From Chthonomonadaceae bacterium (GTDB taxonomy: Bacteria; Armatimonadota; Chthonomonadetes; Chthonomonadales; Chthonomonadaceae): DNA of 40,953 bases. The DNA lies in the NCBI GenBank assembly GCA_027459665.1, contig DAIDHN010000035.1, positions 1 through 40,953 of the forward strand, in the 5' to 3' direction. The notes below the pieces were generated by a model. The model saw nothing but the letters and a program-made list of their open reading frames with translations. It had not been told where the DNA came from and made no database searches. Position numbers and translations under genes: made by a program. Of this stretch, positions 11,721 through 40,369 are shown in pieces. Numbering within the stretch: position 1 is the stretch's first letter; every line of letters begins with the position of its first letter.

Positions 11721-11874
11721 GCAGATCAAAAACCGGCTGAATACTTGCAATTCTCAAACAGCCAGTTGAGCTATTCCATTGCTCCGCCTCAACAGGTGTA
11801 TGGGTACAATTCACCGAAAAACCTGGCATCGGTGGGTACGCGTACAACAGCATGGGTAAATGATTTCTTATTTA

Positions 11875-11883
11875 TGGTATAAC
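11875..11883 (+). promoter_or_regulatory. Extended -10 promoter giving a probably leaderless transcript
   Basis: TGGTATAAC (TG-N-TATAAC) ends six bases before the ATG at 11890. Transcription would therefore start on or next to the start codon. No Shine-Dalgarno sequence precedes the ATG, as expected of a leaderless message. Confidence 0.55.
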
Positions 11884-11889
11884 AACGCT

Positions 11890-13050
11890 ATGAGCAATGT
11901 TGCAGCAATACCTATTCATATTGAAGACCCGGTGAATGCCGCCATTCTGGCGGTTTCAGAAGACCGCATACAGGGGTTTGAGCCAGACCCGATTGGCGTG
12001 ATTGCCAGAGAAACAGGCATCGATGCGAATACTGTGCTGGAGCGAGTGCGCGCCATGCTGCAGGGAGGGGTGATCAGGCGCGTGCGACAGACGCTGCTGG
12101 CTACCAACCTGGCACAGGGGGCGCTGGTTGCCTGGCAGCTTGAAAAACATCAGCTGGACGAGGCATTTGATTTTCTGTTTCAGCAAGACCCCTTTTCAGG
12201 GCACGTGGTGGTGCGTTCTGCCGATCCCGCTACCCCTGGTGCGCAATACCGCCTGTGGACTACACTGAAAGTGCCGCAGGGGTATTCACTGCACAAGCAC
12301 TGCCTGTTTCTTCAGAAGCATATTGGCGCAAAAAGTTTTCTGATTATGCCGGCCAAACGCCTGTTTGCCCTGGGAGTAGGGCATGTACGCAGACGGGGGC
12401 TGGAGATTGGCAGCAAGAGCGAGGCACACGCTGAAGCGCTGACTACAGAGGTGGTGCAGCTGAGTGAGCTTGACTGGCAGGTTCTAGTGCCTTTGAAACG
12501 CGAATTTGCTCCTGAAGAATTGCAGCGCGACTTGTGGCGGGCAAGAGCAGTAGAGGCTGGGGTGGATTTTGACACTTTTTGCAGGGTGGCACAGCTGCTA
12601 AATGAGCGCAAGGTAGTAGGAAGATTTTCTACATTTCTTGAACATGTAAAACCTGCTACAGATGGCGAAAGGCATGTTACACGCTACAACGCCCTGTTTC
12701 ACTGGGCAGTGCCGGCAGGCAGAGAGATGGAGGCAGGGCAGGAAGTGGGCAGGTTTCATATTATGACGCATGCCTACTGGCGTGAGGGCGGCCCCGAGTT
12801 TCGCAATGTGAACATTATGGGGGTGGCGCACGGGCTGGACAAGGAGGTTTTGCTTGCACACAAGGCTGCAATGGATGCACACTTGCAGGAATGCGGCATA
12901 CCTCTGCTTTACACCAATGTTTTCTGGGGTGGCCGCAGTGAAATAAAGCCTTCTGAAATTGCTCCCGATGCATACAGAGCTTTCTGTGTGCAGATGGCAG
13001 TCAACCCGGATGAGATGCGCGCCGAACCGGGTGAATACGCTGGCTCGTAA
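11890..13050 (+). CDS. Two-domain AsnC/Lrp-like protein of the siroheme decarboxylase (AhbA/AhbB, NirD/L/G/H) type
   Basis: The protein has 386 residues built as two AsnC-like units, each a winged-helix part plus a RAM-like ligand fold. Unit one covers about 15-165 (GVIARETGIDANTVLERVRAML, then DPFSGHVVVRS); unit two about 190-375 (GRFSTFLEH, then VGRFHIMTHAYWREGG and NVNIMG). This arrangement resembles fused AhbA/AhbB, which remove two carboxyls from siroheme to make didecarboxysiroheme for heme b or d1. Because siroheme-dependent sulfite reductase and sat lie 3 kb away, a role in siroheme supply or sensing is possible; a plain transcription factor is the alternative. The ATG at 11890 fits the leaderless promoter; an upstream in-frame ATG at 11860 is less likely. 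Confidence 0.75.
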   Translation: MSNVAAIPIHIEDPVNAAILAVSEDRIQGFEPDPIGVIARETGIDANTVLERVRAMLQGGVIRRVRQTLLATNLAQGALVAWQLEKHQLDEAFDFLFQQDPFSGHVVVRSADPATPGAQYRLWTTLKVPQGYSLHKHCLFLQKHIGAKSFLIMPAKRLFALGVGHVRRRGLEIGSKSEAHAEALTTEVVQLSELDWQVLVPLKREFAPEELQRDLWRARAVEAGVDFDTFCRVAQLLNERKVVGRFSTFLEHVKPATDGERHVTRYNALFHWAVPAGREMEAGQEVGRFHIMTHAYWREGGPEFRNVNIMGVAHGLDKEVLLAHKAAMDAHLQECGIPLLYTNVFWGGRSEIKPSEIAPDAYRAFCVQMAVNPDEMRAEPGEYAGS

Positions 13051-13059
13051 CGGTCTGAT

Positions 13060-13072
13060 GCAGTAGTACTGC
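13060..13072. repeat. Short palindrome between convergent genes
   Basis: GCAGTA-G-TACTGC fills most of the 23-base gap between the siroheme-decarboxylase-like gene and htrA. It could act as a weak bidirectional stop or be chance; there is no T-run. Confidence 0.25.
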
Positions 13073-13073
13073 C

Positions 13074-14225
13074 TTACGGGGCATAGGGAGGGTTGCTCGG
13101 CATTGCTGCTAGCGTGAGGTGCAGAGTGAGCAAATTTGTGCTGCCTGGGCGCAGTACCTGCAGCGAAAGCACATCTCCGGGATGGTGTTTGCGTACTGTA
13201 AGCGCCAGGTCGTCGTTGTTGTGAATGGCAATGCCATTTACCTGCAGCAAAATATCATCCTGCTGCAAACCCGCGGCAGAAGCGGGGGTTTCACTGTAAA
13301 CCCTGCTTATCTGTACCCCCTCATTTTGCTGCAGTTTAAGCGCCTGCGCTACATTTTGAGGAACTGCTTCAAATTCTATACCCATCCAGGGCGGGGTTTG
13401 CCCGCCGGCAGGATGCCCTTGTGCGATGAGCTGGCGCACCACGCTGCGCACTGTGTTGGAGGGTATGGCGAAGCCGAGGCCGATACTGCCTCCATCTGGC
13501 CCTGAGCTGAGAATAGCGGTATTGATGCCTACAAGCTGCCCGGCGATATTGGCCAGCGCCCCCCCCGAATTTCCCCTGTTGATTGGTGCATCGGTTTGAA
13601 TAGCGTTTTTCAGGTCGTGTCCCTGTTCAAGCTGCAAGTTGTGCCTGTTCAGTGCAGAACATACTCCAACGGTAACAGTAGAGCCGAGGCCAAGCGGATT
13701 GCCTACCGCCAAAGTCCAGTCTCCAACCTGCAGCTGGCTTGAATTGCCTATGACAGCGCAGGGAAGGTGCGAGGCATGTATGCGCAGTACTGCCAGGTCT
13801 GTGGCAAGGTCTGCGCCAACGATTTGGGCGTAGTACCATTTGCCGCTGGGAAGGGTGACACGAATTCTGCTGGCGCCCTGAATTACGTGATTGTTGGTGA
13901 CAATGTAGCCATCGGGGGTCAGGATAACGCCTGAGCCTTTGCCGTGCACTTCCTGGTTGAGAAAGAAAGGGACCCCGTTTGCATCCTGCATAGAGAGTTT
14001 GCCTACGGTATCTATATTCACCACAGTGGGTTCGATTCTTTTAACTGCCGTACGAAATGGGCTGGTATCTGGAGGTACCGGAGGCGGGGGAGCATCTAGA
14101 ATGGCAAGCGCGTTTCTGCGTGCAGCCGAGGCAGAAGCTGAGTGGTTTTTGTAATGCAGTACAATGCCCGCCCCGGCGAGTACGCCAAAGAAGAAAAGCA
14201 GCAGGGGCAGAATTTTTTTTGCCAT
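13074..14225 (-). CDS. htrA: HtrA/DegP-like serine protease with one PDZ domain
   Basis: This is an envelope quality-control protease. Residues 4-24 form an N-terminal membrane anchor followed by an Ala/Pro-rich stalk. The trypsin-like domain (about 60-265) carries the triad His113 (IVTNNHVIQG), Asp143 (ATDLAVLRI) and Ser220 (INRGNSGGAL). One PDZ domain follows (about 275-370; GLQQDDILLQVNG). With 383 residues it is the short, single-PDZ DegS/HtrA-like type. Its ATG comes directly after the ribH stop, so it is last in ribBA-ribH-htrA. Codons 2-5 contain a run of eight A on the coding strand. Confidence 0.94.
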   Translation of the reverse strand: MAKKILPLLLFFFGVLAGAGIVLHYKNHSASASAARRNALAILDAPPPPVPPDTSPFRTAVKRIEPTVVNIDTVGKLSMQDANGVPFFLNQEVHGKGSGVILTPDGYIVTNNHVIQGASRIRVTLPSGKWYYAQIVGADLATDLAVLRIHASHLPCAVIGNSSQLQVGDWTLAVGNPLGLGSTVTVGVCSALNRHNLQLEQGHDLKNAIQTDAPINRGNSGGALANIAGQLVGINTAILSSGPDGGSIGLGFAIPSNTVRSVVRQLIAQGHPAGGQTPPWMGIEFEAVPQNVAQALKLQQNEGVQISRVYSETPASAAGLQQDDILLQVNGIAIHNNDDLALTVRKHHPGDVLSLQVLRPGSTNLLTLHLTLAAMPSNPPYAP

Positions 14226-14705
14226 TTACCCGCCGTCTTTCAAACCTGCAAGCAGGCTGGCCATTTCCACTGCAGTCAGAGCGGCTTCTGCACCTTTGTT
14301 ACCGGCCTTGCTGCCTGCACGTTCCATTGCCTGTTCGATATTTTCTGTGGTAAGCACCCCAAAACCAACGGGTATGCCTGTGTCAAGCATTACCCTGCTG
14401 ATGCCAGAGGTTACTGCAGATGCGATTAGGTCGTAATGTGAGGTTGCGCCGCGTATAATGCAGCCCAGAGCAACGATGGCCTGAAACCGCCCCGATCGCG
14501 CAAGCGCCTGCACCGCAATGGGAATTTCGTAGCTTCCGGGCACGTGTATCACTTCAATGGCGCTCTCGTCGGCTCCACAGCGTCGGAGCGCATCGTGCGC
14601 ACCCTGCAGCAGCGGGCGGGTGATGAGTTCATTCCATCTGCTTACCACTACTGCTATGCGCATACCCTGTGCAGAGATGCTTCCTTCTTTTTCCTGCGCA
14701 CTCAC
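14226..14705 (-). CDS. ribH: 6,7-dimethyl-8-ribityllumazine synthase
   Basis: RibH condenses ribityl-aminouracil with dihydroxybutanone phosphate, the step before riboflavin. The 159-residue protein contains [46 protein letters not shown] and [15 protein letters not shown], all diagnostic. It starts at GTG 14705, four bases inside the end of ribBA (GTGA overlap), with GGGAG before it. Coupled translation with ribBA, which supplies both precursors, is expected. The riboflavin synthase and deaminase genes are not in the window. Confidence 0.97.
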
Positions 14706-15937
14706 AGGTTTTCTCCCTTCTGTGCAGCTGTATCGTCGAGCATATGGCCCATTTTTTCCTGTTTTGTACGCAGGTAATTTTCATTGTGCGGATTAGGGGC
14801 TATGCGCAGGGGCACGTGCTCCTGTATGGTGATGCCATATCCTTCCAGCCCGGCTACCTTGCGTGGATTGTTGGTAAGAAAGCGTATATTTTGCAGCCCC
14901 AGGTCGGTCATAACCTGTGCTCCTATGCCGTAATCTCGCAGGTCGGGCTTAAAGCCAAGCATTTCGTTGGCCTGCACAGTGTCTGCCCCGCTGTCTTGCA
15001 GCTGGTAGGCGCGCAGCTTGTTGATGAGGCCAATGCCTCTTCCTTCCTGTTCCAGGTAGATGAGAGCGCCTCTGCCTTCTTCTGCGATGTTTTGCAGTGC
15101 AAGATGCAGCTGACTGCCACAGTCACATCGTAACGAATCGAGCAGGTCTCCTGTGACACAGGAAGAGTGTACTCGCACCAGCGGGGGAGGAAGCGCGGGG
15201 TTCAGAATATCTCCTTTTACCAGGGCAACCACATGGTTTGGCTCAACGCTTGCCTCGTAGGCATACACAGTAAATTCTCCATATTTACCGGTAGGCAGGC
15301 GTGTTTCTGCCACTCGTGTGATGAGCCTCTCTGTACGACGGCGGTAGGCAATGAGGTCTGCCACGGTGATGAGAGTGAGTTGAAAGCGGTCTGCAATGCG
15401 CAGCAGTGCCTCCAGGCGTGCAGCATTGCCATCATCATCCAGAATCTCGCACAGTACGCCTGCCTCTTTAAATCCTGCCAGTCTGCACAGGTCGAGGGTT
15501 GCTTCTGTGTGCCCTGCCCGCTTGAGTACTCCGCCCTCCACGGCGCGCAGGGGGATAACATGTCCTGGGCGCATCAGGTCTTCGGGCACTGCATTGTCGT
15601 CTGCAAAAACAGCCACTGTGCGCGCCCTGTCTGGAGCGGATATGCCAGTGCTGGTGCCATGAGCAGCATCCACTGTAATAGTCATAGCTGTTCCCAGCCG
15701 TGCCGTATTCTGAGTTACCATCATGGGCAGCCGAAGCTTTTCCAGCCTTTGTTCGGTGGTTGCCACGCAGGGAATGCCTCTACCGTGCATGATGAGAAAA
15801 TTCATGATTTCTGGCGTGCAGCATTCTGCTGCCACAATAAAATCGCCTTCATTTTCCCGGTCTTCATCATCTACAACGATGACTGCCTTGCCCTGTTTCA
15901 GGTCTTCTACTGCCTGTTCTACTGTTCCGAACCCCAT
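14702..15937 (-). CDS. ribBA: Bifunctional 3,4-dihydroxy-2-butanone-4-phosphate synthase / GTP cyclohydrolase II
   Basis: The protein has 411 residues. The N-terminal half (about 1-205) is the DHBP synthase with [35 protein letters not shown] and RRAGHTEA-type motif (here [12 protein letters not shown]). The C-terminal half is GTP cyclohydrolase II with the zinc cysteines of [25 protein letters not shown] and FLTNNPRKV. Together they make the two riboflavin precursors. AGGAG precedes the ATG at 15937. The 5' leader is only about 25 bases, too short for an FMN riboswitch. Confidence 0.97.
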
Positions 15938-15969
15938 GTGCCCGCTCCTGAGTGCAAACAGATATGTAC

Positions 15970-15975
15970 ATTATA
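15970..15975 (-). promoter_or_regulatory. -10 element of the ribBA-ribH-htrA operon
   Basis: A perfect TATAAT on the minus strand lies 32 bases before the ribBA ATG and just after the terminator of the upstream unit. The -35 region is poor, so regulation by an activator is possible. Confidence 0.5.
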
Positions 15976-16081
15976 CGCTTAAAAAACCAGAGGGTGCGGC
16001 GTTCTGCACTGCAACATTACTGTTTAGCACATGCAATTGCACGTCTACTCTTGCATCTGCCCGTACAGTGCGTCTGAAACC

Positions 16082-16113
16082 AAAAAAGCTCCTGCTGGCA
16101 CAGCAGGAGCTTT
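16082..16113 (-). terminator. Rho-independent terminator of sat-sulfite reductase
   Basis: AAAGCTCCTGCTG pairs perfectly with CAGCAGGAGCTTT (13 bp) around a 3-base loop, and the minus strand then runs into six T. It lies 13 bases after the sulfite reductase stop. Confidence 0.92.
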
Positions 16114-16125
16114 AGGGGAGAGACT

Positions 16126-17757
16126 CTACTCTACTCCGGCAGGGGCATGAGTACGGGGGGGGGGCGGCGTCCAGTTGGGATCATCCTTCGCCAGCAGATG
16201 CAAACCGATGTGTTCACCCAGCTCGTGGTCAGTGTGTCGGTCTACCCACTGCCCAAAAGTCTCCTCGGTCTGCCGTGTATTTTGGAAGGCGCAGAGCAGG
16301 TTTTCAAGCGCATATTTCACCTTGTCGGCGGGCACCTTGCGTGAGATGGCCCGCACAAATTTGGCGTCTTCTCCCAGTCTTCCTCCCAGGCAGACATCGT
16401 ATGCCTCTACCTGTTCACCGTTGTTGAGACGTGCGAGGCATCCCTGCAGCCCTATGTCTCCTATGTGGTGCTGGCCGCAAGAGTTGGGGCATCCGTTGAG
16501 ATGTATTCGCACAGGTTCTTCCCAGAGCATTTTCTGTTCAAGATGGGTTATTATTTCACGCAGCCTTGCCTTGGTTTCGGTGATGGCCAGGTTACAGAAT
16601 TCATTGCCAGTGCAGGAGACTGCTCCCTTGTGGAATTCTGAAACATCCCAGCGAAAGCCTGCATCCAAAATAGCCTGCTTTGCTGCAGGCAGGTCTTCTG
16701 CCGCAATATTTGGAAACAGGAAGTTTTGCTGGTTGGTGGTGCGAATGTTTCCCTGGCAGTAGCGTTCGGCAATATCTGCTGCCGCAGAGAGCTGTTCGGC
16801 AGTAACGCGGCCAGTGATAATAGATACTCCAATCCAGTACAAGCCAGCCTGTTTTTGTTCATGCACACCCAAATGGTCTTGCTGTACATGCCCTTGCGGG
16901 TCTGGGATGGGCAGCGCAGGTTCGGGCGTCCAGCCCAGTCTTTTGATCACTTCTTCCTGAAACTTTTCTGCTCCCCAGTCGGCTACCAGGAATTTGAGGC
17001 GTGAATGGTTTCTGCGCTTGCGGTACCCTTCATCGCGGAATATTTCGGTAACCGCCCTGCACACATCCAGTGCCTGTTCTGGGCGGATGAACATATCGAG
17101 CTTTTGTGCCAGGTGCGGCTGGGTAGAGAGGCCGCCTCCTACTCGCACATGAAAGCCTGTTTCTTCTCCTCTTCGCACAGCCTGCAGTGAAAGGTCGTTG
17201 ATTTCGGGCTGATTGCAGTGAATGGTGCAGCCTGAAATAGAAAGCTTGTACTTGCGGGGCAGGTCTGAGTATTCCTTGTTGCCCAGAAAGTAGCTTGTGA
17301 TTTTCTCTATGACAGGTCGTGCATCCAGTACCTCATCCGGGTCTATGCCGGCTACAGGGCATCCGCAGACATTGCGCATAATGTCGCCGCATGCGCCTGT
17401 AGTAGAAAGCCCTGCGCTGCTGAACAGTTGCAGAATGGCAGGGAAGTCTTGAATGGTGAGCCAGTGAAACTGAAAGTTCTGACGCGTGGTGATATCTGCA
17501 ATTGAGCGCCCGTACTGTTTGGAGACATAGGCCACCGCCCGCAGTTGTTCTACTGTGAGGCTGCCGCCCGGTATGCGCACTCGCATCATGAAGTGACCTT
17601 CTTTTGGCTGCTGCTCGTATATGCCGTACCAGCGGAACAGTGCCATATCTTCCGGTGCGATAGCGTCGTATCCCAGTTCTGCATAGCGCAGAAGGTCGGG
17701 CAGCACGTCTAGGCCGTCTTTCTCTTTTTTTAGTACCTCAATGTCAATTTTTGCCAT
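16126..17757 (-). CDS. Ferredoxin-type sulfite (or nitrite) reductase, siroheme and 4Fe-4S
   Basis: This enzyme performs the six-electron reduction of sulfite to sulfide, or nitrite to ammonia. The 543-residue protein has two nitrite/sulfite reductase half-repeats. The cluster/siroheme cysteines are at about 382, 388, 423 and 427, in SCTGNEFCN and NGCPNSCGQHH. The neighbouring sat, 38 bases upstream in the same operon, favours sulfite. I chose the ATG at 17757 since GAGGAG precedes it; a TTG one codon earlier is also open. The last codons contain a run of ten C on the coding strand (16164-16155), encoding PPPP. Confidence 0.93.
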   Translation of the reverse strand: MAKIDIEVLKKEKDGLDVLPDLLRYAELGYDAIAPEDMALFRWYGIYEQQPKEGHFMMRVRIPGGSLTVEQLRAVAYVSKQYGRSIADITTRQNFQFHWLTIQDFPAILQLFSSAGLSTTGACGDIMRNVCGCPVAGIDPDEVLDARPVIEKITSYFLGNKEYSDLPRKYKLSISGCTIHCNQPEINDLSLQAVRRGEETGFHVRVGGGLSTQPHLAQKLDMFIRPEQALDVCRAVTEIFRDEGYRKRRNHSRLKFLVADWGAEKFQEEVIKRLGWTPEPALPIPDPQGHVQQDHLGVHEQKQAGLYWIGVSIITGRVTAEQLSAAADIAERYCQGNIRTTNQQNFLFPNIAAEDLPAAKQAILDAGFRWDVSEFHKGAVSCTGNEFCNLAITETKARLREIITHLEQKMLWEEPVRIHLNGCPNSCGQHHIGDIGLQGCLARLNNGEQVEAYDVCLGGRLGEDAKFVRAISRKVPADKVKYALENLLCAFQNTRQTEETFGQWVDRHTDHELGEHIGLHLLAKDDPNWTPPPPRTHAPAGVE

Positions 17758-17795
17758 CAAAATCTCCTCAAACCATCATTTGGCTTTTGTTTCGG

Positions 17796-22365: not shown

Positions 22366-22914
22366 CTAGGCTGTTTTTTTGCGCAGTTCGTACACCGCAT
22401 CTGTCTGGCGTATGAGTCGTTCAGCTTCTGTAGCGCTGAGGCGGCCGTTTGTTACCATTTGCAGTATGCTACGTCGGGCTTCCAGCCTCTGCCCTTCCAG
22501 GGCATCCAGTGGGTTCACCACAGTGCCTGTTTTTTCGGGCGATCGCGTTACCTTGCTACGCACCGCCTCAGTTACCTCGGCAGATTTGTTGCGTACAATG
22601 TTTTTTAAGCCATCCCAAGTTTCACGGGTTGCGGTGCGCGCCGACTCTTTTACATACACTTCCACCATTTTGAGCAGTGCCGGCGCCAGTCCGTTTACTT
22701 CTACAGAATAGTGTGAACCATCGGGGCGCTGTATCTCTACAGTTTGCTGCCGCGGGCGTGCCGTATCTTCTTTGGCGGGGGGTTCTTTATCGGCAGGTTT
22801 TGCATTAGCTGCAGGGGCTGCCAGCGCTGCAAGCAGAGCGGCCGCTTCGTCAGCTCGAATCAGGCCGTCTGCCAGCATTTGCATAATGCGCTCGCGCTCG
22901 GCTGTCTCATTCAT
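22366..22914 (-). CDS. SHOCT-like domain protein, third gene of the DUF2089-DUF4097 operon
   Basis: The 182-residue protein is soluble. A SHOCT-like helix pair at its start (about 8-33; RERIMQMLADGLIRADEAA) and a second copy at its end (about 145-172; RRSILQMVTNGRLSATEAERLI) flank a Pro/Lys-rich linker and a middle segment with a beta-like EIQRPDGSHYSVEVNG and a charged helix. Its ATG overlaps the DUF4097 stop as ATGA, so it is coupled to that gene, and GGAAGGAA precedes it. The same helix pair occurs in both upstream proteins. The function is unknown; a shared oligomerisation role is my inference. Confidence 0.8.
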   Translation of the reverse strand: MNETAERERIMQMLADGLIRADEAAALLAALAAPAANAKPADKEPPAKEDTARPRQQTVEIQRPDGSHYSVEVNGLAPALLKMVEVYVKESARTATRETWDGLKNIVRNKSAEVTEAVRSKVTRSPEKTGTVVNPLDALEGQRLEARRSILQMVTNGRLSATEAERLIRQTDAVYELRKKTA

Positions 22915-24293
22915 ACTGTGGTTCCTTCCGTATTGCGCAGCAGGTGTATATCCCCCGATATGGTCTGCACATTCAGAGTACCGGTTCCACTGCCAAGCTG
23001 TCCGCTCCAGAGGGTTTCGCCAGCTTGCACGCTGCTTGCATCGTGTTCGCATCTGAGGCTGCCAGAGGTAGTGGAGAGAGATGCTCTTACATCACTGCCC
23101 TGCACCAGCGCCAGTTGTACATCTCCGCTTACGCTGGAAACCTGAATACTGCCCGAATACGGTTGGCTGAAGCGAATTTGAATGTCGCCGCTTACTGTTT
23201 GCGATTGTGTTTTGCCAGAGATGAGTGAAGCAGCATTTATATCGCCTGAAACCGACTTCATGGCAATGCTGCCGCTGGCATTCTGCAGGGATATATCACC
23301 GCTCACCGAATCGCAAACAATATCAATGGGGCAGACAACACCTACCCGCTGCAGAAGAATATCGCCAGACACCACCTTGCATTCCACTTTTCCACCCTCC
23401 AGGTCTGAGGCGTTCAGGTCTCCACTGCCGTTGCGCGCCAGCAGCCCGCCGCCGACCTTGTGAATTTGCATGTCTCCGCTTGCACTGGTGGCCACGGCAG
23501 CGGCGGCAATGTTTTGCATGGTGATGCTGCCCGAAGCTGTTTCTCCTCTCACATCCCTAACATCCGTAAGGGTAAGAGAACCTGAAGCGGTAAAGGCTTC
23601 TACACTGGCTTCTATCCCGGTTACAACAGCCTCGCCAAAGGTGGTGCGCAGATGAAGCTTGTCGGCATGCACAGGGATGTACAATTCCAGATCGACTGTT
23701 CCATCCTCAAACGGGTCGGGAGCGCTCACCTTGATGTCCAGCCTCGAATCGGTGCCGTGTATAGCTACCTCCATGCGCGAACATACGCTTTCGGGCGACT
23801 GCGCCGCCCATGCTACTTTATGTACAGAAACCGAGGCGGGGCCATTTTGAATCCCTGTAATTTGTATGTTGCCCAGTGGGTTCTCTACCAGAATCTGTGA
23901 GCCATCGGTGAGATGAAATTCCTGCTGATGGTTTTCTTCATGTACAGGCAGATTGCCTGAATTAACCGGTCGTTCATCGTGCATTGTTGCCCAGCTGCGC
24001 ACTCTGGCAGACATAAGTGTAGACCAGTGAGAAGTGGAACGGGTGACTCCTTTGAGTTGTTTGAGAATGCGTTCGGGCTGCACTTTTGAAACCGCTTTGG
24101 TAATTCGCTCACCTAGGTCATCCAGGTCTATGTGCAGATCCACCTTTTTCTTTTCCTGAGGCGGCGCATCTGTTTTGGCAGCAGCAGCTGGCGCTCCTTC
24201 GCCGCGCAGTGCGGCAATCAGCATTTCAGCTTCCTGCGGGCTGATCTGGCCGTCCTGCAGCATTTGCAATACCCTCATTACACTTTCGTCCAT
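22911..24293 (-). CDS. DUF4097 beta-solenoid protein with N-terminal SHOCT-like/YvlB-type motif
   Basis: The 460-residue protein starts with a helix pair (about 5-30; VMRVLQMLQDGQISPQEAEMLI), then a charged linker, then a long right-handed repeat region of the DUF4097 putative-adhesin type. That region has at least eight SGD repeats (VSGDIL, VSGDIS, VSGDIN, VSGDIQ, VSGDVQ and others). No signal peptide or membrane segment is visible, so despite the family name it may be cytoplasmic, like YvlB/LiaX relatives in envelope-stress responses. AAGGAAG precedes the ATG at 24293; the frame opens 12 codons earlier without support. Confidence 0.88.
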   Translation of the reverse strand: MDESVMRVLQMLQDGQISPQEAEMLIAALRGEGAPAAAAKTDAPPQEKKKVDLHIDLDDLGERITKAVSKVQPERILKQLKGVTRSTSHWSTLMSARVRSWATMHDERPVNSGNLPVHEENHQQEFHLTDGSQILVENPLGNIQITGIQNGPASVSVHKVAWAAQSPESVCSRMEVAIHGTDSRLDIKVSAPDPFEDGTVDLELYIPVHADKLHLRTTFGEAVVTGIEASVEAFTASGSLTLTDVRDVRGETASGSITMQNIAAAAVATSASGDMQIHKVGGGLLARNGSGDLNASDLEGGKVECKVVSGDILLQRVGVVCPIDIVCDSVSGDISLQNASGSIAMKSVSGDINAASLISGKTQSQTVSGDIQIRFSQPYSGSIQVSSVSGDVQLALVQGSDVRASLSTTSGSLRCEHDASSVQAGETLWSGQLGSGTGTLNVQTISGDIHLLRNTEGTTV

Positions 24294-24347
24294 CGTCTCT
24301 ACTTCCTTTCTGCCCCTTTGAGCGGGCAAGGCAGTTCATTTTCAGAT

Positions 24348-24788
24348 TCAGGTAAGGTCTTTCAGAATTTGTGCGGCTTCTTCTGCGCTCATATCGCCAT
24401 GTGCCAGAGCATCAAGAACTTCCCGCCGTTTTGCGGTATGGTCTGCTGGCTCAGCGGTTTGCTGCGCCGAGGCAGAAGAAACGCTGTAAGAGAATGTAAC
24501 AGTAGAATGCTCGCTGGAAGGTTCTTCGTTGAGCTGCAGTGCGTTGAGCGCGTTTTGCAGCCGGTTTCGCACCGTTGGGTATGAGATGCCCAGTTCTTCA
24601 CCCACTCTTGTAAGATTTCCCTCACATCGCAGAAACAACTCTATAAACGAGTACTGGTCGGCCGGGAGGCGGCAAAAGCGACAGAGATCGAACTGGCTGT
24701 GCACGCTGGTTTTACAGTGATTGCACTGCAGTTCTGCTACAGTCATACCACCCTGGCATACCGGGCACTGAGACAGTGGTTTGGCCAT
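24348..24788 (-). CDS. DUF2089 zinc-ribbon, helix-turn-helix protein
   Basis: The 146-residue protein begins with a zinc ribbon (CPVCQGG, CNHC, then CRFCRLP). A sigma-like helix-turn-helix follows (about 48-80; LFLRCEGNLTRVGEELGISYPTVRNRL). It ends with the SHOCT-like pair RREVLDALAHGDMSAEEAAQIL. It is probably the DNA-binding regulator of its own operon. AGGAGG at 24806-24801 supports the ATG at 24788, and a near-consensus promoter lies directly before. It is first of three genes. Confidence 0.9.
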   Translation of the reverse strand: MAKPLSQCPVCQGGMTVAELQCNHCKTSVHSQFDLCRFCRLPADQYSFIELFLRCEGNLTRVGEELGISYPTVRNRLQNALNALQLNEEPSSEHSTVTFSYSVSSASAQQTAEPADHTAKRREVLDALAHGDMSAEEAAQILKDLT

Positions 24789-24813
24789 GGTTTTACGTAT
24801 CCTCCTATGTGTT

Positions 24814-24842
24814 ATAATACAACATATTGAAGAATACGTCAA
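24814..24842 (-). promoter_or_regulatory. Sigma-70 promoter of the DUF2089-DUF4097-SHOCT operon
   Basis: TTGACG (24842-24837), a 17-base spacer and TATTAT (24819-24814) on the minus strand. Just upstream (24843-24891) lies an A/T-rich block like an UP element. The leader is about 20 bases. Confidence 0.82.
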
Positions 24843-35228: not shown

Positions 35229-36089
35229 TTACCAGGCAATTTGGGTAGGGAAGTAGCGGGCAATGAGGTTTTGGTAATAGTCTGTTAATGCCTCGGTATT
35301 GGGAGCCTCTTCAGATTTTGAATAGAGATCGTAGGGCTGAAACGCGCGCACCCAGGCAAAAACCTTCTCGTCTTTTTCGTTCATAAGGTGTGCATAGGCA
35401 TGCTCTTTGTGAATGGGATAGCATGAGTGGTAGCGTATGATGGCAAGTGCTTCTTCGGGCAGATAATTTTTCACCACCTGGTACAGGTATTCATCATGCC
35501 CCCAGGAAAAGTGTACTTTATCGAGACCGCAGTGCTGCTTATAGATGCCGCATTCGGTTTGATACTGCGGGTTGAGGCTGTCGGGGTTGGCAGCAAAAAA
35601 TTCATGGTACACAATGGCAGGGGAATATCTGCAGCCTACCGGGAACGTGTCGCCTACCACTGCCCACTGCGGTTCACCCTTGAGGCAGAGCAGCTTGCCC
35701 AGGTCGTGTATCAGCCCCGTTAGCACAAACCAGTCTGGATGCCCGTCAGCGCGAATAGCCTCTGCCGTTTGCAGCAGGTGGTCTATCTGCGTGAGGCTGG
35801 TATCGGGGTCGCTGTCGTCTACCAGAGTATTGAGGGTTTCCATGGCTTCCCACACTCCCATAGTTTCATGTGAGGGCGGCAGATATTCATTCTTTTTGTT
35901 CAGCACAAATTCAAGCGTCTGGTATTGATGATTGATACGGTAAAACTCGCGCACTCCCGCTTTTTCGGTGGTTTCGTAATCTCTAAACTTGCGCGGTTCA
36001 TCTGCCTGAGTTTCGTATCGCTGCTTGCGCTCTTCATCAAGCGCGTCCAGGTCTTTCAGCGGGCTGCTGTCTGATACATTCTTGTTCAT
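35229..36089 (-). CDS. Inositol oxygenase (MIOX family)
   Basis: MIOX is a di-iron enzyme that cleaves myo-inositol to D-glucuronate with O2. The 286-residue protein carries all six iron ligands of the family: His in DHLLQTAE, His-Asp in LIHDLGK, His in WGHDEY, His in IRYHSCYP and Asp in [19 protein letters not shown] is also family-typical. MIOX is best known from eukaryotes and scattered bacteria. AGGAGA precedes the ATG at 36089, just after a hairpin with a T-run. It follows the exporter operon on the same strand. Confidence 0.93.
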
Positions 36090-36101
36090 CTCATTCTCCT
36101 G

Positions 36102-36121
36102 AAAAAGCATTTCAGAAATGC
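36102..36121 (-). terminator. Hairpin with T-run directly before the MIOX ribosome site
   Basis: The 15-base palindrome GCATTTC-A-GAAATGC is followed on the minus strand by TTTTT, and AGGAGA begins one base later. It can end the TetR-exporter transcript or work as an attenuator on inositol oxygenase. Confidence 0.5.
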
Positions 36122-36165
36122 GTTTGCTTTTTCGTATGTTCCTTCTGTTTGAAAAATATTCCTTC

Positions 36166-37254
36166 TTACCCAACGCTTTTGTGAAATCGGCGGGTTGAGG
36201 CAGTAATCAGCACCAGAGTGATGATGAGCAGGCTGTAGAACTGCGGCAGCAGGTCGGTGAAGCCAGCTCCGCGCACTGCTATGCCCCTGCAGATGCTTAC
36301 GAAGTGGGTGACAGGCAGCAGCTCGGAGACAAGATAGAGCGGGCCGGGCAGGGTTGAGCGCGGGACGATGTAGCCTGAGAGCAAAATGGAGGGCATGGTG
36401 GTGAGCAGCGTCATTTGCATTGCCTGAGACTGGCTTTGCGCCACCGTGCTGATAAACAGGCCAAGTGAAAGCGCTGCCAGCACAAACAGCATGGCCAGCA
36501 GCAGAAGAAGAATGATGCTGCCCACAATGTTTATATGAAAAATTAGCCAGCTTGCAAACAAAACCACGCACATTTCACCCATGCCCAGCAGGAAGTAGGG
36601 AGTGAGTTTACCCAGCATGAGGCCAAGCCCTCCAACCGGGCTGACCATTAGCTGCTCAAGCGTACCCTGCTCACGTTCTTTCACCAGGCTGAAGCTGGTG
36701 AGAGAAACCGTAGTGAGCTGCAGCAGCACGCAGACCAGGCCAGGAATAGTAAACACCTGGGTGCGAGCATCTGGATTGAAGAGAACGTCTAAGCGGGCAT
36801 CCACAGTCCCCTTGGCGCCTGCGGCAGGAGGCCGCGAGAGAGCATTCTGAACGGCGCTGGTGGTCTGGCTGTCTGAGCCGTCTACCAGCATGCGTACAAC
36901 AGGTGGGCGGCTGGTATTGTATCTTTGTGCAAAGTCTGGGGGAACGATGATGGCTACCTTGGTTACATTTCTGCGAATGTCATCTGCAGCTTCGCCCGGT
37001 GTGGCAGCGCTGCCTGTGATCTGCAAGTATCGTGTGTTTTGCAGCTGCTGCAGGTAGTTGAGGCTTTGAGCCGACCTATCCATATTTACCACCAGCGCCG
37101 GCACATGCTTGATGTTGAAATTGAGCGCGTACCCAAACAATATCAGCTGCACAAGGGGAATGATGAGGGCAAAAACGAAAGTAGAGGGGTCTCGGCGAAT
37201 GTGCATCCATTCCTTCAGCACAATGCTTCTATAACCAAACATGGGTGTATTCAT
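36166..37254 (-). CDS. ABC-2 type exporter permease
   Basis: The 362-residue protein has one N-terminal membrane segment (about 25-45), a large outer domain (about 46-190) and five or so C-terminal segments with [20 protein letters not shown] and [15 protein letters not shown]. This is the YhhJ/YbhS/YbhR class. It forms the channel for the ATPase upstream. Its ATG overlaps the ATPase stop as ATGA. Only one permease gene is present, so it may work as a homodimer. Confidence 0.94.
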
Positions 37255-38189
37255 TTTGCTGCCAGCTTTCTGGTAAGTATCACAAACACATCTTCGAGTG
37301 AAGGCTCTACCGGCCTCATGGAGATCACTTCTCCTCCCGCCTGCTGCACCACATTTTGCACATCAGCGTCTTCGGCATGGTTTTGCATGAGCAAATGAAT
37401 TTCCGCCTCCACCAGCGTGGCATCCTCTGCCCATGGCTGTTTTTTGAGGGCGCTGAGCGCAATGGAGGGCTGGTCGGCAGCGATGGCTATGCGCCTAGTG
37501 TTTGGCGGCGATACCTCTGGCAGCGCCTTGAGATATGCAGGCGAGCCCAGCGCCATCAGTTTCGAAAGGTAAATGTAGGCAATCTGGCTGCAGCGTTCCG
37601 CCTCATCCATATAATGAGTGGTAACAAAAAGCGTTTTGCCCTGCGCTGCCAGTTCAAACAGAAGGTCCCATAGTTCCCTGCGGGCAACCGGGTCTATTCC
37701 TGCAGTCGGCTCATCAAGAAAAACCAGCTCTGGTTCATGAATCAGCGCCGCGGCAAGCGCCAGTCTTTGTTTCCAGCCGCCAGAGAGCTGGCCGCTGCGC
37801 CGCTGCAGATAGCCTCCTATTCCCACCAGATCGACCACTTCTTTTTTTCGCTGACGCAGTTTTTCTCCTCGCAGACCATATACGCTGCCGAAAAACGTAA
37901 GGTTTTCATCTACGGTGAGGTCTCGGTACAGACTAAAAATCTGATTGAGGTAGCCAATTGACTTTTTAATGGCTTCTGTCTCTTTCACAATGTCATATCC
38001 GTTCACTGAGGCGCTTCCTTCAGACGGTTCCAGCAGGCCGCAGAGCATGCGTATGCAGGTGGTTTTGCCGCTTCCGTTTGGCCCCAGAAAGCCAAAGATA
38101 GAACCCTTTGGCACTTGAAACGTAAGGCTGTCTACGGCAGTAAAGTTTCCAAATCTGCGGGTAAGTCCGTTGAGTTCTATAGCGTTCAT
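37251..38189 (-). CDS. ABC exporter ATP-binding protein
   Basis: The 312-residue ATPase has Walker A GPNGSGKTT, signature LSGGWKQRLALA, Walker B LVFLDEPTAGID and TTHYMDEAE, followed by the longer C-terminal region of the CcmA/YbhF type. It partners the permease and the HlyD adaptor in an efflux pump. I chose the ATG at 38189 (MNAIELNGL); a TTG four codons upstream has equal support. It starts 17 bases after hlyD. Confidence 0.95.
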   Translation of the reverse strand: MNAIELNGLTRRFGNFTAVDSLTFQVPKGSIFGFLGPNGSGKTTCIRMLCGLLEPSEGSASVNGYDIVKETEAIKKSIGYLNQIFSLYRDLTVDENLTFFGSVYGLRGEKLRQRKKEVVDLVGIGGYLQRRSGQLSGGWKQRLALAAALIHEPELVFLDEPTAGIDPVARRELWDLLFELAAQGKTLFVTTHYMDEAERCSQIAYIYLSKLMALGSPAYLKALPEVSPPNTRRIAIAADQPSIALSALKKQPWAEDATLVEAEIHLLMQNHAEDADVQNVVQQAGGEVISMRPVEPSLEDVFVILTRKLAAK

Positions 38190-38206
38190 GTTCTCTTTCA
38201 AGCAGT

Positions 38207-39664
38207 TCAGGGTTTCCAGCCGCCTATGCGCAGCACAGTGGCGTAGATGCCGGGCTTTATCTTTTTGTGTGGGTGCAGGGTGCGCAGTTTCACAGCGAAA
38301 ACCTGCTTACCCCTTTCATCTGGCGTTTGCAGGTTGGTTGGGGTGAACTCGCCTATGCCTGCAATGCTTTCCACCTTCGCCAGCACGGTTTGCTTCATGC
38401 CGTCTATTCTCAGCACGGCGGTCTGCCCTATGGAAACAGATGCCAGTTTTTTTTCTGGCACATACACTTTTATCCAGACGTCAGCGGGGTTTTCCATCTC
38501 AACAAGCTCTTCTCCCGGGTTCACCAGGTCGCCTGCGGCAACGGGGATAGTCTGCACGAATCCTGTAAACGGAGCGCGCACCACTTTTTCTGAAACAGTG
38601 AACAGTTTACTTTTTGCCAGGGCCTGCGCCGCCATCGCGGCAGCTTTGCGCTGTGCAATGTCTTCCTGCCTGCTGCCTGCCAGCAGTTTGGCAAGCAGGG
38701 CCTTCTGCATTTGCAGCTCATCCTGTGCCTGGTGCAAGGTTTCGGTGCGTGTGCCAGCCAGCAGCTCTTTCAGCGCTTCTGCTGCCTCATCGCGAGCCGC
38801 TTTGTCTGCTGCAATCTGCTGCGGGCGCGTGCCTGCCAGAACAAGCGCCAATGATGCCTGTGCCTGCTGCAGCTCGGCCCTCTTGATGGCAATTTGCTGC
38901 CTGGTAGAACCTTTTATGGTGCGCTGGTAAGCCTGCTGCAGCTGCAGAGCGTTTTGGCTTGCCGTGTCGCTGCTGGTTTTGTACTGCTCATACTCCTGCA
39001 GGCTCACGGCGTCTTCTGTGTAGAGAATGCGGTAGCGCTGTGCATTGCGGCGTGCCAGTGCTGCCTCTGCAGCCGCCGCCCTGTAGAGTGCTCTTGCCTC
39101 TGCACGTGCCTGCTGGGTAGGCCCCCTAAGCGTTTGCTGCAGGTCTGCAGCAGCCTTTTGCTCTGCAGCGCGTGCAGCAGCAATATCCTGTGGCCTGGGG
39201 CCTTGCAGGGCATCTTCGTAAACCGCCTGCCTTTGTGCCAGCTTTGCCCTCGCCTGCGCGATGTCTTCCGGCCGCGGGCCGTGCTGCAGCTGAAGCAGGC
39301 TGGCCTCAGCCGCTGCAACTGCAGCCTGCTGTGCCTCAATGTCTTGCTGCCGCGGGCCGTGGAGCGTTTCCTGCAGCGCCGCTGCCGCTTCCAGCGCCTG
39401 CTCCTGGCTTGCTTTTGCGTCTTCTATCTGCGGTGCAGCATTGAGAAGCAGCAGCGGTTCACCTTTCTGCACACTATCTCCTTCATGCACGAGTATTTGA
39501 CGTATTCTGCCCGATGTTCGTGAGGAAACCTCGGCAGGGGTTGTTTGAAAGAAACCCGAAAGCGCGCTTCGCTGACGAATGCGCTGCAGATTGATATACC
39601 AGCCGCCCAAGCCTATAATGAATGCAGCAAAGAGCGCGAAAAAAAAGGGCAGTCTTTTTTTCAT
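38207..39664 (-). CDS. HlyD/YbhG-family periplasmic adaptor protein with expanded repeat hairpin
   Basis: The 485-residue protein links the inner-membrane ABC pump to an outer-membrane channel. It has an N-terminal membrane anchor (about 5-25), the lipoyl half (GRIRQILVHEGDSVQKGEPLL, about 52-75), then a long helical hairpin and a second lipoyl half (VVRAPFTGFVQTIPVAAGDLV) with a beta-barrel end. In the hairpin a motif L-x-G-(P/S/T)-(R/T) recurs with its Gly at 103, 129, 155, 181 and 252, 278, 304, 330, always 26 apart inside each set. Arg210, Leu214 and Ser221 match the AcrA-type RLS TolC-docking motif in spacing. No tolC gene is present in this window. Confidence 0.92.
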   Translation of the reverse strand: MKKRLPFFFALFAAFIIGLGGWYINLQRIRQRSALSGFFQTTPAEVSSRTSGRIRQILVHEGDSVQKGEPLLLLNAAPQIEDAKASQEQALEAAAALQETLHGPRQQDIEAQQAAVAAAEASLLQLQHGPRPEDIAQARAKLAQRQAVYEDALQGPRPQDIAAARAAEQKAAADLQQTLRGPTQQARAEARALYRAAAAEAALARRNAQRYRILYTEDAVSLQEYEQYKTSSDTASQNALQLQQAYQRTIKGSTRQQIAIKRAELQQAQASLALVLAGTRPQQIAADKAARDEAAEALKELLAGTRTETLHQAQDELQMQKALLAKLLAGSRQEDIAQRKAAAMAAQALAKSKLFTVSEKVVRAPFTGFVQTIPVAAGDLVNPGEELVEMENPADVWIKVYVPEKKLASVSIGQTAVLRIDGMKQTVLAKVESIAGIGEFTPTNLQTPDERGKQVFAVKLRTLHPHKKIKPGIYATVLRIGGWKP

Positions 39665-39720: not shown

Positions 39721-40338
39721 TCATTTTGCCTGCAGCCCCTCCAGAAAAATTCGAATGGTTTCCTGCAGAATCACCGAGTTCTCCTGTTTTGGCTGCTCTT
39801 GTATAAACAGCAGGTTGCGTGTGAACATGTAGGTAATCAGCGGCCCCAGAAAGCAGCGCGCCGCCAGAAACGGATCGGCGGCCAGAAGCAGCTTCTCATC
39901 CATTTTTTTCTGCAGAAACCCTGCAGTCAGGGCCATAATGCGCAGCGGGCCAGCCTCTGCCGCTACACAGGCAATGGTTTGCGACTGCACCACCTCGCTC
40001 ACAATTACCCTGAAACCGGCAGCTGCATCCGGGTTATCGACAAGTGAGAGGTATGCCGCCCCTATCATCTGCAGCCCCTCGCGCGGGGGGAGTGCAAGCA
40101 GGGTCTGCGATTGGTACAGCAGTTTCATTTCAGGTGCAAAGTTTTCTATAACTGCGCGCAGCAGGTCTTCCTTGTTTTCGAAATAGTGATAGATTAGGCC
40201 CGGTGATCTGATGCCTGCAGCATTTGCAATGTCTCGGTTGGTAGCTTTTGTGAATCCTTTGAGAGCGAAAACGTGCAGTGCGCCCTGAATGATCTGTGCC
40301 CTTTTTTCTGCTGCGGTATCGGTTTTGCTGTTTTTCAT
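39721..40338 (-). CDS. TetR family transcriptional regulator
   Basis: The 205-residue protein has the TetR DNA-binding head (about 12-60; IIQGALHVFALKGFTKATNRDIANAAG and GLIYHYFENKEDLLRAV) and a variable ligand domain. It is first in a leftward operon with the adaptor, ATPase and permease, so it most likely represses this efflux pump in the absence of its ligand. I chose the ATG at 40338; a TTG ten codons earlier would extend into the operator. A perfect dyad overlaps its promoter, so autoregulation is likely. Confidence 0.94.
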   Translation of the reverse strand: MKNSKTDTAAEKRAQIIQGALHVFALKGFTKATNRDIANAAGIRSPGLIYHYFENKEDLLRAVIENFAPEMKLLYQSQTLLALPPREGLQMIGAAYLSLVDNPDAAAGFRVIVSEVVQSQTIACVAAEAGPLRIMALTAGFLQKKMDEKLLLAADPFLAARCFLGPLITYMFTRNLLFIQEQPKQENSVILQETIRIFLEGLQAK

Positions 40339-40355
40339 GGGTTTCTCTTCATTTG

Positions 40356-40369
40356 ATTGACTGGTCAAT
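40356..40369. promoter_or_regulatory. TetR operator
   Basis: ATTGAC-TG-GTCAAT is a perfect 14-base dyad four bases downstream of the -10 of the tetR promoter, around the start of transcription. Its half-sites resemble known TetR-family operators. Confidence 0.75.

Follow-up and report, generated by a model that had tools for sequence, protein, structure and literature searches.

Mirror-ordered glycine knuckles in the long hairpin of a YbhG-like periplasmic adaptor from a Chthonomonadaceae bacterium

Introduction

It is poorly understood how adaptors determine how far an export machine extends across the cell envelope. The locus described here raises one part of this question, namely how a long helical hairpin can change its length while its two arms stay in register. 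It lies in a 40,953-nucleotide stretch of DNA from a Chthonomonadaceae bacterium (GCA_027459665.1, contig DAIDHN010000035.1), the whole of which is called the window below. A sequence-only reading had interpreted the adaptor encoded here as a hairpin with matched pairs of repeats in register around an RLS tip. That interpretation is supported by our analysis, with the amendment that 26 residues is one of several steps by which such arms are built.

Results

The adaptor gene and its neighbours

The features of the adaptor and of its operon are listed in Table 1. The protein possesses the lipoyl domain split by a helical insertion and the beta-barrel which define the periplasmic adaptor (HlyD/membrane fusion) superfamily, with Pfam matches above cut-off, and it has the RLS-type hairpin tip of that superfamily, R210, L214 and S221 being located at the tip loop. 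In structure comparison, the adaptor model aligns to MexA, AcrA and EmrA. Its best NCBIfam match is NF002939 (YbhG), at 136 bits versus a curated cut-off of 393, which places it outside the YbhG equivalog. The TetR regulator, adaptor, ATPase and permease genes follow one another as in a YbhG-type operon, both in the window and in relatives, and the adaptor-ATPase-permease order is kept in the relatives checked, which span hairpins of the 4+4, 3+3, 2+2 and 1+1 types (knuckles per arm). Outside this locus, the genome has genes for several TolC-like proteins. From its sequence, we identify the protein as a YbhG-like periplasmic adaptor of an ABC exporter, with a predicted biological role.

A gene for myo-inositol oxygenase (35229-36173; Pfam MIOX, E 1.7e-108) shares eight bases with the end of the permease gene, although none of the relatives checked showed it next to the adaptor operon. 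At the contig end, 40885-40953 correspond to the initial 69 positions of a 16S rRNA gene, and the contig therefore breaks within that gene. Among the other genes of the window, a neighbouring group at 22366-24842 specifies DUF2089 helix-turn-helix, SHOCT-like and DUF4097 toastrack domains, and perhaps forms a small regulatory set. The region 11860-17760 contains a protein with an AsnC-like ligand-binding domain and a weak match to NirDL-like siroheme decarboxylase, roughly 3 kb away from a gene for sulfite/nitrite reductase.

Table 1. Coordinates in the window of the adaptor, its parts and its operon
Feature	Position	Strand	Basis
Adaptor, HlyD/YbhG-like periplasmic	38207..39664	(-)	485 aa; Pfam HlyD_3 3.7e-20, HlyD_D23, Biotin_lipoyl_2
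N-terminal membrane helix, residues 5-32	39569..39652	(-)	Lower-confidence model helix; hydrophobic sequence
Lipoyl domain, first half, residues 36-75	39440..39559	(-)	Pfam Biotin_lipoyl_2 at 45-72; model strands
Left-arm base helix, residues 77-102	39359..39436	(-)	Model
Knuckle G103-P-R105, left arm, outermost	39350..39358	(-)	Sequence, model, knuckle matrix
Knuckle G129-P-R131, left arm	39272..39280	(-)	Sequence, model, knuckle matrix
Knuckle G155-P-R157, left arm	39194..39202	(-)	Sequence, model, knuckle matrix
Knuckle G181-P-T183, left arm, innermost	39116..39124	(-)	Sequence, model, knuckle matrix
71-residue tip module, residues 181-251	38912..39124	(-)	Superposes on AcrA and MexA hairpins
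RLS triad R210-L214-S221, hairpin tip (loop 217-221)	39002..39037	(-)	Sequence and model
Knuckle G252-S-T254, right arm, innermost	38903..38911	(-)	Sequence, model, knuckle matrix
Knuckle G278-T-R280, right arm	38825..38833	(-)	Sequence, model, knuckle matrix
Knuckle G304-T-R306, right arm	38747..38755	(-)	Sequence, model, knuckle matrix
Knuckle G330-S-R332, right arm, outermost	38669..38677	(-)	Sequence, model, knuckle matrix
Right-arm base helix, residues 333-358	38591..38668	(-)	Model
Lipoyl domain, second half, residues 361-391	38492..38584	(-)	Model and structural alignment
Beta-barrel region, residues 396-480	38225..38479	(-)	Pfam HlyD_3 at 361-472; model strands
ABC ATPase, same operon	37251..38201	(-)	Pfam ABC_tran 3.4e-32; adjoins adaptor in relatives
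ABC-2 permease, same operon	36166..37254	(-)	Pfam ABC2_membrane_3 3.9e-41; neighbour kept in relatives
TetR-family regulator	39721..40368	(-)	Pfam TetR_N 2.2e-13; position as cecR in E. coli

Glycine knuckles and repeat units

The hairpin (residues 77-358) contains eight glycines only (103, 129, 155, 181, 252, 278, 304 and 330), all of them where the sequence-only reading had placed them, and their steps are 26-26-26-71-26-26-26. As had been claimed, the 26-residue step is exact in both arms, giving six pairs 26 apart, and the central gap is 71 residues long, with its midpoint at 216.5 (about 216 in the claim). When eight glycines were placed at random 200,000 times, six equal pairs were never reached at any spacing from 10 to 60, the maximum being five; chance spacing was ruled out on this basis. 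The motif ascribed to these sites, L-x-G-(P/S/T)-(R/T), holds for its L-x-G part at six of the eight; residue 129 (LQHGPR) and residue 252 (IKGST) depart from it. Similarly, the repeats are exact in spacing and not in sequence, as units within one protein are approximately 26-45% identical and are therefore old.

Among 22 aligned relatives, G103, G129, G155, G181, G278, G304, G330, R210 and L214 are listed as invariant, and G252 is conserved at 90% or more. In one relative, L049, the region of the first knuckle shows a gap or Q and the fifth knuckle is missing; it is palindromic by coincidence only, one knuckle having been lost per arm at non-matching places. In a sequence search, the knuckle repeat was absent from solved protein chains, the best match (E 0.99) being a designed protein.

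The 26-residue unit carries hydrophobic residues at positions 6, 13 and 20 and Ala at 9 and 16, while in the 33-residue unit, which comes from a distant family, hydrophobic residues stand at 6, 13, 20 and 27. The latter would appear to be the 26-residue unit plus one heptad, with the same 12-residue knuckle zone. In the unit alignment, identity between proteins is 46% for units at the same position versus 33% for units at other positions. Because the units have retained signatures specific to their positions, growth of the arms by repeat duplication, as originally proposed, is graded as likely only.

Predicted structure of the hairpin and its tip

AlphaFold2 was applied to the full-length protein (mean pLDDT 89.7, pTM 0.48) and to the hairpin only (mean pLDDT 94.3, pTM 0.58). 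Both models interrupt both arms at the same eight sites, which are the knuckles. The left arm consists of segments 77-102, 106-128, 132-154, 158-180 and 184-216 (26, 23, 23, 23 and 33 residues) and the right arm of segments 222-251, 255-277, 281-303, 307-329 and 333-358 (30, 23, 23, 23 and 26 residues), such that the helix lengths of the two arms mirror each other around the tip at 217-221. In both models the RLS region is thus at the tip, as had been expected, and the breaks match between the two arms, across which the repeats would pair. The enlarged helical hairpin that had been envisaged has its mirrored arms; each arm, though, is made of successive helices interrupted at G-x-R and is not one long helix. 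Taken end to end, the hairpin model matches long antiparallel hairpins, for example a chemoreceptor domain, with an rmsd of about 22 Å. The overall shape, which we infer from the models, is uncertain because of the low pTM values and the rmsd of approximately 20 Å in the full-length matches.

The tip module (residues 106-177 of the hairpin model, 181-252 of the protein) superposes on AcrA residues 99-170 with an rmsd of 1.5 Å over 72 residues, and on MexA residues 69-137 with an rmsd of 1.2 Å over 69 residues. The proposed RLS-like triad R210-L214-S221 is present and lies at the modelled tip. Across 96 tip modules, the R, L and S residues occur in 95%, 97% and 53%, respectively.

Survey of related hairpins

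Knuckles were located with a position matrix derived from 22 relatives; trained on 26-step relatives, this finder may miss very different knuckles. Genome contigs queried with an alignment yielded 48 loci, and queried with the single protein, none. The sample leans on Armatimonadota, together with samples of other phyla, and after removal of identical hairpins comprised 103 sequences. Knuckle counts were 1+1, 2+2, 3+3, 4+4 and 5+5. In the first pass, 82 hairpins were strictly mirrored, 15 were non-mirrored and six had too few knuckles to judge.

With the tip module written in brackets, the first-pass classes were 26-26-26-[71]-26-26-26 (18/103), [71] alone (18/103, E. coli YbhG among them), 26-[71]-26 (14/103), 33-33-[71]-33-33 (13/103) and 71-[71]-71 (8/103). 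Mixed step series are still mirror-ordered around the tip, as in the single cases 71-26-[71]-26-71 (L151), 33-71-[71]-71-33 (L220) and 33-26-26-26-[71]-26-26-26-33 (L207). The window adaptor falls into the proposed mirror-module hairpin group, having equal, mirror-ordered knuckle series around a 71-residue tip module, with the pattern 26-26-26-[71]-26-26-26. The 26-residue length step that had been predicted does occur; it is not the sole one, as 33, 71 and others were found.

Clustering of the C-terminal domain at 60% gave 20 clusters with extended arms, 15 of which were strictly mirrored versus 2.6 expected with right arms shuffled. None of 100,000 right-arm shuffles reached 15, a figure to be taken as a guide and not as an exact probability, since the clusters are related by descent and the shuffles overstate their independence. 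One 60% cluster combines 33-[71]-33, 71-[71]-71 and 33-26-26-26-[71]-26-26-26-33. In one cluster, the inner step takes values of 71-72, 85-86 or 99-100; the extra 14 or 28 residues lie on the base side in both arms, in the left module within its first half and in the right module within its second, as expected for paired arms and unlike self-contained hairpins. The base segments also vary together (27|32, 59|63, 79|84) in a crude motif search, where motif errors or overlooked knuckles were taken to account for a few outliers. The survey supports the view that, in almost every relative with a longer or shorter hairpin, the change is equal in the two arms. Repeat numbers had been expected to change in matched pairs, and among the 103 hairpins the arms are matched with one clear exception, L134 (4+3).

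Exceptions

Most of the non-mirrored hairpins contain a knuckle-like stretch without Gly at the mirror position. Unequal arms were rejected for L159, L198, L165, L191, L193, L177, L128 and L132, in which such a stretch lies within one residue of that position (weak in L191), and for L138, L141 and L146, in which the tip finder had picked another module and the spacing lists are palindromic. The two arms of L149 mirror each other with a deviation of at most one residue, and L196 and L232 have one extra weak knuckle match each. A knuckle-like stretch sought at the mirror position of L115 gave no convincing partner (score 1.0). The series of L089, L161, L201, L202 and L226 are one-sided or have no partner, and may be incomplete.

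In L134 (163-2268), seven knuckles follow one another at intervals of 71, with four ahead of the RLS module and three behind it, and this protein is a real exception to the mirror rule. Since its two most similar modules are just 77% identical in DNA, the arrangement is unlikely to be a plain assembly copy. In the non-tip 71-residue modules of this hairpin and of L133 (1471-2970), the mid-module motif tends to differ by arm, being STELKQQVD-like in left arms and YxERLxxRQQ-like in right arms.

Discussion

The window very probably encodes a YbhG-type exporter adaptor in which an AcrA-sized docking hairpin stands on matched segments, its length changing by matched additions to both arms. The docking hairpin, that is, the 71-residue RLS tip module, would be carried by matched coiled-coil segments, each arm supplying three 26-residue steps and a base segment, with four knuckles marking them. 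Each G-x-R knuckle would end a segment, break the helix and reset the heptad register, the left and right knuckles lying at nearly the same level. The arms would be in register only if both carried the same ordered series of segments, so that arm length would have to change by matched additions of 26, 33 or 71 residues. Packing along the arms may be continuous and antiparallel, the adaptor oligomer may reach a TolC-like channel, and the hairpin segments might set its reach or provide joints.

The mirror rule would hold equally if the knuckle pairs were sharp turns at which both arms folded back together into a short stack of helix pairs. Each break comprises three non-helical residues from the Gly on, above the usual need of a mild kink; a straight 140-residue arm would measure about 210 Å versus 127 Å for the EmrA hairpin (PMC4158417); and a review describes a CusB hairpin folded back on itself on a small scale (PMC4446572). 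Nevertheless, we regard such folding as unlikely, for the long structures that the hairpin model matches best, at large rmsd, are extended antiparallel coiled coils and not compact bundles or solenoids; they include the chemoreceptor hairpin (284/285 residues), SMC arms, a colicin hairpin, EmrA and F-BAR.

Were each 71-residue module its own helix-turn-helix, a 71-71-71 series would seem mirrored without any pairing of the arms. The non-tip modules do match the tip module in length and resemble it, and the odd arrangement in L134 would suit this proposal, which we nonetheless hold to be quite improbable: mixed series such as 71-26-[71]-26-71 and 33-71-[71]-71-33 are mirror-ordered, the 14- or 28-residue insertions sit in opposite halves of the modules of the two arms, on the base side in every case, and the 26- and 33-residue steps are not amenable to it. 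There is also only a very slight chance that the pattern is an incidental result of ordinary coiled-coil duplication, the Gly repeats marking old tandem copies and arm matching reflecting shared ancestry and no constraint. The relatives come from few lineages, and some architectures are each a single clade, yet architecture switches among close relatives (as in one 60% cluster) while the mirror order stays.

Returning to a docking tip on matched segments, three paralogues in the same genome show the 1+1 pattern, which is at odds with one fixed length for the whole periplasm. We tentatively suggest, as a possibility somewhat short of an even chance, that YbhG-like hairpins are combinatorial, with a constant AcrA-like tip on nested interchangeable segment pairs, nested blocks being swapped between paralogues by recombination at the knuckles such that both arms change in one event. 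If true, this would provide modular control of length or joints in bridging the envelope. Countable matched length steps and a constant docking tip make the question of reach testable, and the mirrored series offers a simple rule for predicting residue pairing along very long hairpins.

Comparison with known systems

E. coli YbhG, the adaptor of YbhFSR, shares with the window adaptor its fold family and gene order (cecR-ybhG-ybhF-ybhS-ybhR), and is thought to connect YbhFSR with a channel, probably TolC (PMC7190983). Its knuckles, GYR and GNR, are exactly 71 apart around an RLS-type tip; unlike the window adaptor it has this single pair, and its operon contains two permease genes where that of the window contains one. 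In AcrA, MexA and MacA, with hairpin lengths of 58, 47 and 67 Å (PMC4158417), the whole hairpin superposes on the window tip module, and the body of the window adaptor aligns with MexA over 209 residues (Z 17, rmsd 3.9); these proteins differ in being without knuckle-bounded arm segments. Aquifex EmrA, the best Foldseek match, likewise has a long hairpin (127 Å), with register insertions of 4 and 3 residues opposed in the two arms (PMC4158417), but possesses one helix per arm, and Gly repeats are not described for it.

Outside the adaptors, chemoreceptor hairpin 2ch7 can be aligned to the hairpin model from end to end. Chemoreceptor cytoplasmic hairpins undergo symmetric seven-residue insertions and deletions around a conserved signalling tip (PMC5907407); they are an unrelated family that varies by single heptads, and the cited passage does not describe Gly knuckles. 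Our search of the open-licence literature found no mirrored array of Gly-knuckle modules. In a review, adaptor coiled coils are said to gain or lose heptads in both helices (PMC4446572), whereas the family of the window adaptor adds blocks of heptads together with a 12-residue knuckle zone, in mirrored series of mixed size. Change of adaptor hairpin length is thus already known, and the new element would be the knuckle-bounded, mirror-ordered array.
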